Source: a virus. From it: a stretch of DNA of 26,432 bases. The notes below the pieces were generated by a model, which had not been told where the DNA came from, did no database searches, and was given only the letters and a program-made list of their open reading frames with translations. Positions 21,457 to 25,853 of this stretch are shown here, one piece after another (position 1 is the first letter of the stretch; each line of letters opens with the position of its first letter). The position numbers and the translations under genes are program-made. The stretch spans positions 1-26,432 of the IMG/VR virus record IMGVR_UViG_3300027573_000101; one strand, given 5' to 3'.

Positions 21457-22035
21457 TTATTTTATATTCTTATTATAAAACACCAACCCACTTCTGGCAA
21501 GATGCTCCGCACCCTCTGATCCAGCTATAATTCGCACTCTTTGAGTATCTATATCTAATAAAGAAAACCAATGCTCTTCCATTACTTTAATCCAATACTT
21601 CTCAGATTGGCAATTTACATGATGAAAGCCACCTTGACCAGGAAAAGCATGAGATAATATTACAAATTTCCCACATTCTAAAGATGCTAGTATATTAGGA
21701 AGATATCTTGCTTCTACATGTTCTACAGTTTCTATACAAATTACTAAATCTACACGAGTAACAACAGCATGACGCGTCAAATCATGATGAATTGTAGGAT
21801 AAACTGCTCTTCTAGCATTAGCATAAAGACCATCAACAGCAAGGGCGGGGACGCCCAGGGAGTGGAAGTAACTCGCGGCATACCCCATCCCAGAACCGAG
21901 ATCCATCATAGATTTAATAGCGAATCTATCTACCAAATAATCCCAGACCTTAGGACTATGAGTACAAGGGTCTCCTACGAAGATATTCCCACCTACATGG
22001 GGCTGAGTAGGATCTTCAGCATAATCATAATTCAT
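21457..22035 (-). CDS. Class I SAM-dependent methyltransferase (192 aa)
   Basis: I prefer ATG 22035, which overlaps the terminase stop as ATGA, over a TTG at 22071. The protein has the Rossmann-type order of class I methyltransferases: MMDLGSGMGYAASYF (motif I, Asp45 to Gly51), an acidic AVDG at the end of strand 2, DLVICIETVEHV (96-107, motif IV) and a later HAFPGQGGFHHVN loop. There is no NPPY or PC motif of typical DNA base methyltransferases, so a small-molecule, sugar or protein substrate is more likely. Its place between terminase and portal is unusual. Its surroundings are more AT-rich than the terminase gene, which suggests insertion. Confidence 0.82.
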   Translation of the reverse strand: MNYDYAEDPTQPHVGGNIFVGDPCTHSPKVWDYLVDRFAIKSMMDLGSGMGYAASYFHSLGVPALAVDGLYANARRAVYPTIHHDLTRHAVVTRVDLVICIETVEHVEARYLPNILASLECGKFVILSHAFPGQGGFHHVNCQSEKYWIKVMEEHWFSLLDIDTQRVRIIAGSEGAEHLARSGLVFYNKNIK

Positions 22036-23297
22036 GCTACGGATCCAGCACGGCTTATCGGTGTCTTCCAATCAGACTTATTAGGTCCTCCAAGAAGGAG
22101 TCCTCCTTCCGCTGCATATCTAAACGCGTCGGCACCATGCGAGGCCCAGTCGTGTAAAGGTTCTGTTTTTTGCACTTGCATCTTTTCAACCCATTCTGCT
22201 CTATACATCCGCAGACATTCAAGTCCACGCTCGCAACCATCCACATCGAAGAAGCACATAGGTAATATACCACGAACGGCTGATATCCCATCATCCTTAG
22301 CTTCCTTGGTCAATAGAAAGCATTTATTATTTCGCTTTTCTAGAAATTCTACTCGTGTCAGCCCAGTCTGGAGCTCATGTGCTCCTGCATCGTGTGGTAA
22401 GATATGAAGGTCTATCTTATATGGAAGTGAACTAATCCAATCGCAATAGTGTCCAAGATCTTTATTTTTATCTTCATAATACTTAATGAAATGCCACTCT
22501 AGCCCCACCATCTGGAAAACCCAGATCGAGAGCATATCCCCGAACGCCAAATCCCAGGCAGCAAATGTTTGGGCTGATCGGTCGTGAGCGACATACGTGA
22601 TTCTTCCAGAAGCTTCAGCTTCGCTAATATGCTTGCCGTAATAGGATCCCGTGGTGAGGATTTCATATCCACCAGCCCAAGTATGCTCCGCCATAGCCGG
22701 GTCGGTTGCGTAGTCATGAAGCATCTCCTCATATAACACATCAGGAAAGAAGGGGTTATCCTGCCAGTTCGCCTTTACCACAACCGTATTTGGCGGCTTG
22801 ATAGGCTGGCGGAAGAAAAGATCGACAGCGTCAGTCTTGAAGCGAGGATTCCACGAAGCCCAGATCTCTGAGTCGGGTTTTCGTATCGTAGGACGAAGTA
22901 GACGCCAGGAAGCGTGAGAAATATTCTGTGCCTCTTCACACCATGCGATGTCGTAACCTTCCAAACTCTTAATATTCCCAGCATTATAAGACTGAAGTCC
23001 CTTAAAGATCATCAGGGCGCTATTGACGCCCCGAATCTCCTGATCTAATATCTCGAAATGTGATTGAAGATTCATATCTTCAATCTTATCTATCACAAGC
23101 TGCCTCACCGACTCCCTAATCGATGACTGCACCTCACGCAGACACACTATCCTCTTGGGCTTTTCATACATTTTGAGGACAGATTGCTCGGCAAAGAAAT
23201 GACTCTTGCCGCTACCCCGTCCTCCATGAGCTCCCTTATAGCGGGCATCCGCTAAGAGGGGAACGAATACCGCAGGAACTGCTCTATTTAGTTCCAT
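22032..23297 (-). CDS. terL: Terminase large subunit (421 aa)
   Basis: The DNA-packaging ATPase/nuclease. Walker A is GGRGSGKS (25-32), Walker B IAWCEEA (117-123) with the catalytic glutamate, and the coupling motif ASWNP is at 147-151. The C-terminal nuclease has Asp249 (WDLAFGD), Asp303 (LPHDAGAH) and HDWASHGADAFRY (382-394, with Asp383 and Asp390). The pattern is closest to the Terminase_3/PBSX-XtmB type. Length is normal. Translation of this ATG is probably coupled to the small upstream ORF it overlaps by 14 bases, since its own ribosome site (CAGGG) is poor. Confidence 0.93.
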   Translation of the reverse strand: MELNRAVPAVFVPLLADARYKGAHGGRGSGKSHFFAEQSVLKMYEKPKRIVCLREVQSSIRESVRQLVIDKIEDMNLQSHFEILDQEIRGVNSALMIFKGLQSYNAGNIKSLEGYDIAWCEEAQNISHASWRLLRPTIRKPDSEIWASWNPRFKTDAVDLFFRQPIKPPNTVVVKANWQDNPFFPDVLYEEMLHDYATDPAMAEHTWAGGYEILTTGSYYGKHISEAEASGRITYVAHDRSAQTFAAWDLAFGDMLSIWVFQMVGLEWHFIKYYEDKNKDLGHYCDWISSLPYKIDLHILPHDAGAHELQTGLTRVEFLEKRNNKCFLLTKEAKDDGISAVRGILPMCFFDVDGCERGLECLRMYRAEWVEKMQVQKTEPLHDWASHGADAFRYAAEGGLLLGGPNKSDWKTPISRAGSVA

Positions 23298-23409
23298 TAC
23301 CCTGCGCTATCTTAATTATATTATCCATCCATACCGCGGTATTAGGAAAATCTTCCTTCACGCCCAGGCAATACACTATTACCGCCCTTAATCGCTCATT
23401 AGATGACAT
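23284..23409 (-). CDS. 41-residue ORF upstream of the large terminase
   Basis: ATG 23409 follows a near-perfect AAGGAGG (23415-23421) by five bases and opens a 41-codon frame that ends 14 bases inside terL. The product begins MSSNERLRAVIVYCLGVKED and ends WMDNIIKIAQGNGTK, a plausible small amphipathic two-helix protein. The strong ribosome site and overlap suggest it is real or acts as a translational coupler for terL. Part of the ribosome site (23418-23421) lies inside the outer stem of the adjacent structured element, so translation could depend on RNA folding. I recognise no family. Confidence 0.7.
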   Translation of the reverse strand: MSSNERLRAVIVYCLGVKEDFPNTAVWMDNIIKIAQGNGTK

Positions 23410-23417
23410 CAGCACCT

Positions 23418-23665
23418 CCTTATTTGAAGGATACTAGGCGACGTGTACTTTGTCTTTGGGGATCTGTCGAGTGTTACCTGCTCGAGCAATCTAACACCCT
23501 CATCCTTGCTTCCTAGTATCCATCAAATAAGGGAAACTCTAGAGGGTAGAGGCAAGACCGGGGGTCGCGCGTTCCCTCTAGAGTCCCATACAGCACAGGG
23601 GCGAACCCTTTGCTGGATCGTTACCCGGAGAAGGTTTGGGCGATGCTCTCCCGTCTCCTCCGGGT
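23418..23665 (-). ncRNA. Chain of hairpins before the terminase: candidate packaging site or structured RNA
   Basis: Consecutive inverted repeats fill the gene-free gap: 23418-23438 with 23512-23532 (21 bp, one mismatch), enclosing GTGTTA/TAACAC (23471-23476, 23492-23497) around palindrome TGCTCGAGCA; ACTCTAGAGGG with CCCTCTAGAGT (23536-23546, 23574-23584) enclosing GACC/GGTC; CAGCA.AGGG with CCCT.TGCTG (23591-23600, 23606-23615), with a UUCGC loop on the minus strand; ACCCGGAG with CTCCGGGT (23623-23630, 23658-23665). The string suggests a folded RNA in the late transcript or a terminase recognition site. Known roles near terminase genes include cos/pac sites and, in phi29, packaging RNA. 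I cannot choose between them. Confidence 0.5.
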
Positions 23666-23687
23666 CGCTAAGCAGGCGGACGGTGAA

Positions 23688-24014
23688 TCAACCCGCTAAG
23701 TTCAAACCTTTGATGCGTGGATCTTCGAACAACTTGTCAATCACAGCCTGCACAGCCTCGCGCTCAGCAGTCAAGTGACGTATTGCCATGACCCACGCAT
23801 CCCAGGATCCGGAGTGCTCCGAATGCCTAGTCTTATTCCCCTCTGCCCCCGCAATCATCTGCATAAGCGTATCACGATACTCCTGAGTATACGACAAGAT
23901 AGCTCTAAGAGCCACAGTCTCCTGCCTCTTTATCTCAGCTTCTGTGAGCTCATGCGCCTGCGAGGGTGATTCTACCTTCGGTAATACCTTCGACAGATCC
24001 GACAGATCCAACAT
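23688..24014 (-). CDS. Small hypothetical protein in the terminase region (108 aa)
   Basis: A 108-residue, mostly helical charged protein. It contains ELTEAEIKRQETVALRAILS, then a basic/polar stretch with NKTRHSEHSG, and HLTAEREAVQAVIDKLFEDP near the end. AGGGGG lies six bases before the ATG. It sits between the small and large terminase genes and right before the structured element, so an accessory packaging or DNA-binding role is possible, but I see no defining motif and do not recognise a family. Confidence 0.65.
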   Translation of the reverse strand: MLDLSDLSKVLPKVESPSQAHELTEAEIKRQETVALRAILSYTQEYRDTLMQMIAGAEGNKTRHSEHSGSWDAWVMAIRHLTAEREAVQAVIDKLFEDPRIKGLNLAG

Positions 24015-24041: not shown

Positions 24042-24371
24042 CTACGCTACCTTCTTAACTTCAGGCTTCGGAGGTTCTGCCTTCTTAACTATCTCGAAAT
24101 CTGCCACAGATAGAGCTCCCCCAACTCCCGCTGGGCCATCCACTAGCTTCAGAGAACCACTGGAATGAACAATTCCTACCTTGAAATCTCCTTCCCACGT
24201 CTTATCCTCTGCCTTCTTCCGCCTCACCGTATCCCCGGCCTCGATGGTCTTAGCCTTGAGCTCTGCTTTGGCCTTCTCAGCCTTAGCCTGATCTTCCTTA
24301 GCCTTCGCTTCCGCAACTTTCGCTTCTTCTGCGGCCTTCGCTTCTGCTACTTTGTCCATCTTAATCTCCAT
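24042..24371 (-). CDS. Ala/Lys/Glu-rich protein with small C-terminal domain (109 aa)
   Basis: Residues ~5-42 are an Ala/Lys/Glu-only coiled coil (heptad-like AEAKAKEDQAKAEKAKAELK). After it comes a compact beta-like part with AGDTVRRKK, GIVHSSGSLKLVDGP and ADFEIVKKAEPPKPEVKKVA, reminiscent of a small barrel. ATG 24371 overlaps the small-terminase stop (TAATG). An alternative ATG at 24359 has GGAG six bases upstream and may be the main start. No family recognised. The coil resembles the Ala/Lys/Glu tail of the gene at 16522-16857. Confidence 0.65.
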   Translation of the reverse strand: MEIKMDKVAEAKAAEEAKVAEAKAKEDQAKAEKAKAELKAKTIEAGDTVRRKKAEDKTWEGDFKVGIVHSSGSLKLVDGPAGVGGALSVADFEIVKKAEPPKPEVKKVA

Positions 24372-24832
24372 TAGTTAACTCGTTCACTACTCGGCGCATT
24401 CGCCGGTATATCCTCATTCTGCCTGGATAAAGAGGCGGGGAGCTGCCGGGGAATCGGTTCAATCACGGTCATAGTTATCATCTGAGGCATAGTCCGTGCA
24501 TCCGGAGGAGTTTCCTTCGGGTCAGCCCACACCTCAGGAGCCGCCCGCCTCAGAGCCTGCATGAGTACCTTAGACCTGACTGGATCTTCTGTGGTTAGCA
24601 CATCAGCCTCAAGCCGATACACCCGCTGAGCCATCGCGAGTTCGACATCATAGCCAAATGTGGGATGGTTATCGACCCATTGGGCCGCGACCCTATATGG
24701 GATTCCTGCTTTGCCAGCAGAGGCTCTTAGACTGAAGCCATCTTTGACTGTGTCCAAGACTATCTGGGCGATGTCCGCATTGTAGATGGCGGAGGTGCCT
24801 ACCCACTCGAGTTCGTTGCGCCGGTCCTGCAT
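24371..24832 (-). CDS. terS: Terminase small subunit-like protein (153 aa)
   Basis: I start at ATG 24832, which forms TAATG with the preceding stop. The N-terminal third has a helix-turn-helix, IVLDTVKDGFSLRASAGKAG followed by IPYRVAAQWVDNHPTFGYDV, the pattern of small terminase DNA-recognition domains. A helical oligomerisation part follows (YRLEADVLTTEDPVRSKVLM). The C-terminus is Pro-rich and disordered-looking. Small terminases bind the packaging site and hand the DNA to the large subunit. Position upstream of terL in the late operon agrees. Confidence 0.8.
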   Translation of the reverse strand: MQDRRNELEWVGTSAIYNADIAQIVLDTVKDGFSLRASAGKAGIPYRVAAQWVDNHPTFGYDVELAMAQRVYRLEADVLTTEDPVRSKVLMQALRRAAPEVWADPKETPPDARTMPQMITMTVIEPIPRQLPASLSRQNEDIPANAPSSERVN

Positions 24833-25161
24833 TATACCCCGTGAGTCCCTGACCAATAATCTATACAACTCCTTGGGCTGTGTCGAGTATTTTCCGCTGG
24901 AGTTGTATCACACAAGTTATCAATCCAATTATGAGTCTTATCTCTATCTATATGACCTATTACTTTAGGCCAGTACCCATGAACGAAAAACCAAGCTAGT
25001 CTATGTTCATAAATATTTCCAACTCGTCGATACCCATCTACATCTACATAGCCTGCTCGTTTACCTGCGCGATAACCAGTTTTATAGATAAATATTCCCT
25101 TTGTGGGATTATAGGAAAACCTTTGTTTAAGATCACCGTCCATAATATTACAGTATGGCAC
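24832..25161 (-). CDS. HNH endonuclease, apparently truncated at the C-terminus (109 aa)
   Basis: Resembles free-standing HNH homing-type nucleases (HNH_3-like). An N-terminal beta part has FSYNPTKGIFIYKTGYRAG and GYVDVDGYRRV. HRLAWFFVHGYWP contributes the first His, and VIGHIDRDKTHNWIDNLCDT the second His and Asn, with a Gly where Asp is usual before the second His. PAENTRH and SGTHGV end the protein. Relatives usually continue after SG-x-x-GV with another ~25-40 residues, so the tail is missing. The TAATG joint to terS and the position suit a nuclease that invaded the packaging cassette, or a packaging-associated HNH. Ribosome site weak. Confidence 0.7.
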   Translation of the reverse strand: MPYCNIMDGDLKQRFSYNPTKGIFIYKTGYRAGKRAGYVDVDGYRRVGNIYEHRLAWFFVHGYWPKVIGHIDRDKTHNWIDNLCDTTPAENTRHSPRSCIDYWSGTHGV

Positions 25162-25294: not shown

Positions 25295-25331
25295 CCTTAC
25301 GAAGTTACTTTTCTACTAGGTAGGCAACGCC

Positions 25332-25433
25332 GCCTAGCCTAGGCAACTTTACCTATATGTGCTACTAAGCCTAGGTTAGGTATACTTACCTATATAAACA
25401 AATATACCTAGCATAGGGTTAATATGCTAGGTA
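25332..25433. repeat. Array of CCTAG/TAGGTA palindromes and hairpins
   Basis: The non-coding part of the island is built of related motifs: GCCTAG-C-CTAGGC (25332-25344), the repeats TAGGCAAC (25321-25328, 25340-25347) and TTACCTATAT (25349-25358, 25386-25395), TAGGTA-TACT-TACCTA (25377-25392), and the perfect 11-bp inverted repeat TACCTAGCATA/TATGCTAGGTA (25405-25415, 25423-25433). They could be operators, iterons or RNA hairpins. No gene of plausible length lies in 25162-25487. Confidence 0.6.
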
Positions 25434-25445
25434 CAAACAGGCAAC

Positions 25446-25477
25446 AAAAATGGCCTAGGTATTGCTACCTAGGCCAT
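25446..25477 (-). terminator. Rho-independent terminator after the gene at 25488-25853
   Basis: A perfect 12-bp stem, ATGGCCTAGGTA/TACCTAGGCCAT (25450-25461 and 25466-25477), with a 4-base loop and TTTTT on its 3' side when read on the minus strand. It lies 10 bases after the stop codon, so it should separate the small upstream transcript from the late operon, which then needs its own promoter between 25162 and 25446. Confidence 0.85.
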
Positions 25478-25487
25478 GCTTTAGTTG

Positions 25488-25853
25488 CTAGGCTGCCTTG
25501 CCAGCCCGTTTAGGGGCTGCTACAGGGGCAGGCGCAGGCGCAGTAGGTAAGCTAGCTACATGCGCCGCAATGGCCTGTACGGTACCGCTAACTGGCGCAG
25601 GCGCGGGCTTGGCAGCAGGGCCAATGGTAATAAAACCATGCTTAGTGTCCCATGCCAAATCTTGCGCAGCGTAGCCTTTACCGGCAAATGCCGCATTGGC
25701 CGGGTCTAGGCATAAAGCCCTATACTGGCCCACTGTAATGCCTTGGTAATACAGGTTAAAACGCCTGTAAGCCTTATTAGGCTGCCCCTTAGCATTAAAT
25801 GGCTGCTTTGGGTTATGGCCAATGTTTACTTTTATTACTAGGTTGTTATCCAT
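25488..25853 (-). CDS. Basic, Glu-free protein in the GA-free island (121 aa)
   Basis: A 121-residue protein with ATG at 25853 and only a distant AGGGG (13 bases upstream). A normal GGAG site would contain GA, which is absent here. Residues 1-78 look like a compact mixed fold (LVIKVNIGHNPKQPF, YRRFNLYYQGITVGQYRALC). Residues 79-121 are an Ala/Pro-rich linker ending in a basic KRAGKAA. There is no Glu and there are just four Asp, giving a strongly basic protein. All Phe are TTT, Ser AGC, Gly never GGA and Arg never CGA/AGA. A terminator follows. A nucleic-acid-binding role would suit the charge but is a guess. Confidence 0.7.
   Translation of the reverse strand: MDNNLVIKVNIGHNPKQPFNAKGQPNKAYRRFNLYYQGITVGQYRALCLDPANAAFAGKGYAAQDLAWDTKHGFITIGPAAKPAPAPVSGTVQAIAAHVASLPTAPAPAPVAAPKRAGKAA

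Follow-up and report, generated by a model that had tools for sequence, protein, structure and literature searches.

A run of hairpins between ORF108 and the ORF41-terL pair of an uncultured phage: a candidate structured mRNA leader or processing element

The window, the whole stretch of DNA analyzed here, is a viral record of 26,432 bases from an uncultured phage and is classed as linear. The genes of interest lie on its minus strand in the order HNH endonuclease, probable small terminase subunit (TerS), ORF109, ORF108, the hairpin element, ORF41, large terminase subunit (TerL), a methyltransferase-like protein, portal, and major capsid protein (Table 1). The portal and major capsid proteins are both of the SU10 type. 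Gene junctions around the element are tight or overlapping, and the element, about 0.7 kb beyond terS, fills most of a noncoding gap of approximately 270 bases between the ORF108 stop and the ATG at 23409. The coding strand of the element contains no sizeable ORF, and a plus-strand ORF at 23443-23778 was regarded as chance. Protein comparison found no relatives of ORF108, the 3' part of which adjoins the element and contains another inverted repeat (17 nt, 82%; window 23707-23806). A protein similar to the HNH endonuclease is absent near nearly all of the terL loci that we fetched.

Between the element and terL lies ORF41, which has 41 codons from its ATG and is listed as 43 amino acids from a GTG at 23415 that overlaps its Shine-Dalgarno sequence. 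The last 14 nt of ORF41 overlap the start of terL. Since ORF41 has no relative in Pfam or PHROGs, we treat it as a putative gene only. The earlier note on this DNA had placed the hairpins directly before the large terminase gene; this was off by about 120 nt, with ORF41 intervening.

Table 1. Coordinates of the hairpins and of the surrounding genes and signals in the window.
Feature	Position	Strand	Remarks
HNH endonuclease ORF	24832-25161	-	Overlaps start of terS ORF
Probable small terminase subunit (TerS)	24371-24868	-	Weak PHROGs/Sf6-type match
ORF109, low-complexity protein	24042-24371	-	PHROGs match weak and confined to charged stretch
ORF108, gene preceding the element	23688-24014	-	Stop at 23688
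Hairpin A	23623-23665	-	11 pairs, one G-U (A-C on plus strand)
Hairpin B	23591-23615	-	9 pairs, one A-G mismatch
Hairpin C	23533-23587	-	14 pairs; core of 11 perfect pairs (ACTCTAGAGGG/CCCTCTAGAGT); small inner hairpin
Hairpin D	23418-23532	-	21-bp stem, one U-U mismatch (minus strand), 73-nt interior
Nested hairpin within D	~23460-23505	-	From fold
Shine-Dalgarno sequence of ORF41 (AAGGAGG)	23415-23421	-	AAGG in stem of D
ORF41/43, small ORF	23284-23415	-	ATG at 23409; stop at 23284
Large terminase subunit (TerL), Terminase_3	22032-23297	-	Start at 23297

Consecutive and nested inverted repeats had been described in this gap, the largest of 21 bp with one mismatch around a 73-base interior, and both a repeat search and folding bore this out. 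The largest repeat is 23418-23438/23512-23532 (95% identity), followed by 23536-23546/23574-23584 (11 nt, 100%) and 23623-23633/23655-23665 (11 nt, 91%). The minus-strand RNA of 23418-23665 folds into four hairpins in a row, with one more nested in the largest. Folding this strand had been proposed as a check; over 281 nt its energy is -120.8 kcal/mol (z = -6.6), and none of 200 dinucleotide shuffles was as stable. When no more than one mismatch was allowed, inverted repeats reached 21 nt in the window but never exceeded 15 nt in 60 windows simulated with a first-order Markov model. Given these two comparisons, we concluded that the hairpin structure is real and is no product of base composition. 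The plus strand of the 281-nt stretch gave a z of -4.0, and when the stretch was trimmed to 260 nt, the values were -6.6 for the minus strand and -5.4 for the plus strand. With composition allowed for, the difference between strands favors the minus strand modestly (4.7% of shuffles were as extreme). Folding also goes far beyond chance on the plus strand, so that the strand comparison is weak evidence and the element may have a role at the DNA level.

The element does not correspond to any known RNA family that we searched. At the gathering score, Rfam gave no match in the window, and with E values up to 10, it gave only one unrelated, chance-level match in 23200-23800 (E 4.5); there was no match to a packaging-RNA covariance model. 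An intron reading was dropped for want of an Rfam match. ARAGORN called no tRNA or tmRNA for the element. We found no promoter-like site in the element and no intrinsic terminator (a G+C-rich hairpin plus a U run) on either strand within 23410-23690, so transcription should run through it.

These results bear on the idea that the hairpins form a stable noncoding RNA that either serves in packaging or is sensed, as a hairpin RNA, by host CBASS cyclases. cabRNAs are structured RNAs that come from the terS-terL region of staphylococcal phages and are recognized by a CBASS cyclase (PMC10686824). The hairpin content of the element is like that of the approximately 400-nt cabRNA of phi80alpha-vir and phiNM1gamma6, and both structures come from the terS-terL region (PMC10686824). 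However, the cabRNAs arise by transcription of the terS and terL genes proper and were found by cyclase binding (PMC10686824), whereas the structure described here is predicted from sequence and lies in a gap between genes. The element is also framed by no promoter or terminator and has neither an Rfam match nor conservation, and we consider a stable RNA of this kind very unlikely.

The phi29 packaging RNA (pRNA) had been suggested as a positional analog. Like the pRNA, the element would be a structured phage RNA for which a link to packaging is conceivable. The positional analogy fails, since the phi29 pRNA gene lies at the left genome end rather than immediately ahead of the packaging ATPase gene. 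The likeness itself did not hold up either: there is no pRNA or other Rfam match, the hairpins are separate and stand in a row, and TerL is of the Terminase_3 type. That the element is a new structured phage RNA of approximately 250 nt, cut from the terminase message and acting in DNA packaging or in TerL regulation, seems to us a far-fetched possibility.

No relative carrying the element was found. Exact-stem DNA scans of viral contigs and blastn of the element against phages and plasmids returned nothing beyond chance in collections that may omit records very near the window. When TerL, portal, ORF108, and alignments of TerL and of TerS were used as queries, many terL relatives were recovered, none with the element; the ORF108 and TerS queries gained no additional relative. 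For comparison, we assembled related terL loci that extend 500 nt or more upstream, 230 in all. The preceding ORF usually overlaps terL in these loci (median distance, -13 nt); the distance exceeds 100 nt in 7/230 and 200 nt in 2/230. We found an equivalent of the element in none of the 230, and the four loci that we inspected among the seven with gaps of more than 100 nt hold none. Inspection of L177, L204, L069, L070, L023, L205, L195, and L252 likewise revealed no equivalent. Gaps in L143-L145, L038, L216, L222, L253, L112, and L114 were rejected as not comparable; they lie over or beside ORFs that reach or overlap terL.

The closest relative with upstream sequence is L096, with 60% identity in TerL and 43% identity between the probable TerS and the ORF in the TerS position. 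In L096, the terS stop lies 5 nt before the terL start. Compared with L096, the window phage thus has approximately 1.07 kb of additional sequence separating terS from terL, made up of ORF109, ORF108, the element, and ORF41. A hairpin-rich region upstream of terS in L096 was rejected as a counterpart because it has no evident likeness to the element; it resembles terminator hairpins and CCTAGGTA/CTTAGGTA-type repeats.

The comparison weighs on the proposal that the element is a DNA packaging site (cos or pac), with the inverted repeats as DNA motifs that terminase recognizes or cuts. A location between terS and terL, the strong symmetry of both strands, and an HNH endonuclease gene adjoining terS would all suit such a site, and the contig of L001, which is among the nearest terL relatives, ends about 40 nt before its terL. 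However, a lone contig end proves nothing, and the element contains no iterons of the type bound by TerS, only short, chance-like direct repeats. Each relative must have a packaging start, yet the 230 related loci show nothing comparable at the same place, where a cos or pac site would be expected. We therefore regard a packaging site as improbable.

Absence from relatives is what would be expected if one or several small, MITE- or REP-like hairpin mobile elements had left the element behind as a remnant, and the stretch from ORF109 to ORF41 sits just where terS adjoins terL directly in L096. Hairpin D would then be a 115-bp unit, and its near-perfect 21-nt arms have the form of MITE-like terminal inverted repeats. 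No target-site duplication flanks D, however, and we found no second copy of the element in the window or in the viral contigs, phages, and plasmids searched. It would also be a coincidence that the stem fits the Shine-Dalgarno sequence of ORF41. A mobile-element origin, with D as such a unit, thus appears rather unlikely.

Other structured stretches were seen in the window and in related loci. For its composition, window 25306-25585 has the strongest folding of the window, stronger than that of the element; its CCTAGGTA-type palindromes include two tandem terminator-like hairpins that follow ORF121 on the minus strand (25403-25435 and 25450-25477). TAGGTA/TACCTA/CCTAGG motifs are abundant in window 25310-25480 and upstream of terS in L096 (L096:480-1860) and are possibly binding sites or a shared noncoding repeat. 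In L066, L068, L069, L070, and L074, an intergenic stretch approximately 500 to 700 nt upstream of terL consists of repeated TTCTACACG and inverted copies. It forms a long hairpin that the five loci share with some sequence changes, making it a possible place to test covariation. L177 has a 20-bp inverted repeat of GGTCCCCTT units approximately 1141 to 1048 nt upstream of terL, overlapping an ORF end.

The last four bases of the 3' arm of hairpin D are also the first four of the ORF41 Shine-Dalgarno sequence. Since this sequence begins inside the arm, the folded leader should hide it. Consistently with this, an accessibility model found that in the full leader the Shine-Dalgarno sequence is nearly all paired (unpaired probability, 0.00 to 0.19) and that opening it together with the start codon costs 11.4 kcal/mol. 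The modeled cost falls to 3.3 kcal/mol for a 5' end positioned 5 nt ahead of the Shine-Dalgarno sequence and is 7.5 to 8.7 kcal/mol for 5' ends 10 to 22 nt ahead of it, so that most modeled cut positions free the sequence only in part. The Shine-Dalgarno sequence of terL itself is weak (GCGCAGGGTAATG), which is consistent with translational coupling to ORF41.

We propose, with moderate confidence, that the element is most likely a phage-specific structured mRNA leader or processing element that gates expression of ORF41 and terL. According to this model, it would separate ORF108 from the ORF41-terL pair as an untranslated part of one polycistronic mRNA, and its hairpins would fold as the RNA emerges. 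The hairpins would restrain ribosome entry at ORF41, and through translational coupling, terminase expression may be kept low or delayed relative to that of other late genes. The stem of D, at 21 bp with one mismatch, forms a duplex of approximately two helical turns and so would be long enough to serve as an RNase III substrate. A cut in the 3' arm of D would yield an upstream message (HNH-terS-109-108) and a downstream message (ORF41-terL-portal) and would at least partly free the Shine-Dalgarno sequence, while the remaining hairpins could protect the upstream fragment.

There is precedent in T7, where RNase III sites such as R1.1 mature and protect phage mRNAs (PMC8708148). In both cases, a long irregular hairpin lies in a phage polycistronic message (PMC8708148). 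The element differs from R1.1 in having multiple consecutive hairpins, of which the last extends into a Shine-Dalgarno sequence, and RNase III cleavage is putative here. The tandem arrangement of hairpins in an intra-operon gap and the long RNase III-type duplex of D would also suit a role in mRNA stability or processing only, in which the hairpins determine how long the upstream and downstream messages last and leave translation initiation unaffected. This would leave the overlap with the Shine-Dalgarno sequence as a coincidence, and we think it unlikely.

The earlier note had offered three interpretations: a packaging site, a regulatory RNA, and a packaging-associated RNA analogous to that of phi29. 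A regulatory RNA is the best supported of the three, because the ORF41 Shine-Dalgarno sequence lies partly within the largest stem and because the coding strand folds no less extremely than the other. What counts against a leader that gates ORF41 and terL is that related terL loci do without the element and that none of the relatives found carries it. The strong folding of the plus strand, the incomplete freeing of the Shine-Dalgarno sequence by most modeled cuts, and the lack of relatives of ORF41 also speak against it. As a singleton without conservation, the element is a lead and not a result.

Taken together, these data suggest that the element is most likely a regulatory or processing element of an ordinary kind within the mRNA. 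A structured gap beside a terminase gene is by itself no evidence for a packaging RNA. If the gating model is true, this phage would set its terminase dosage by using RNA structure to block a short ORF that lies upstream of terL and is coupled to it, which would be a simple way of keeping a packaging motor subunit scarce.
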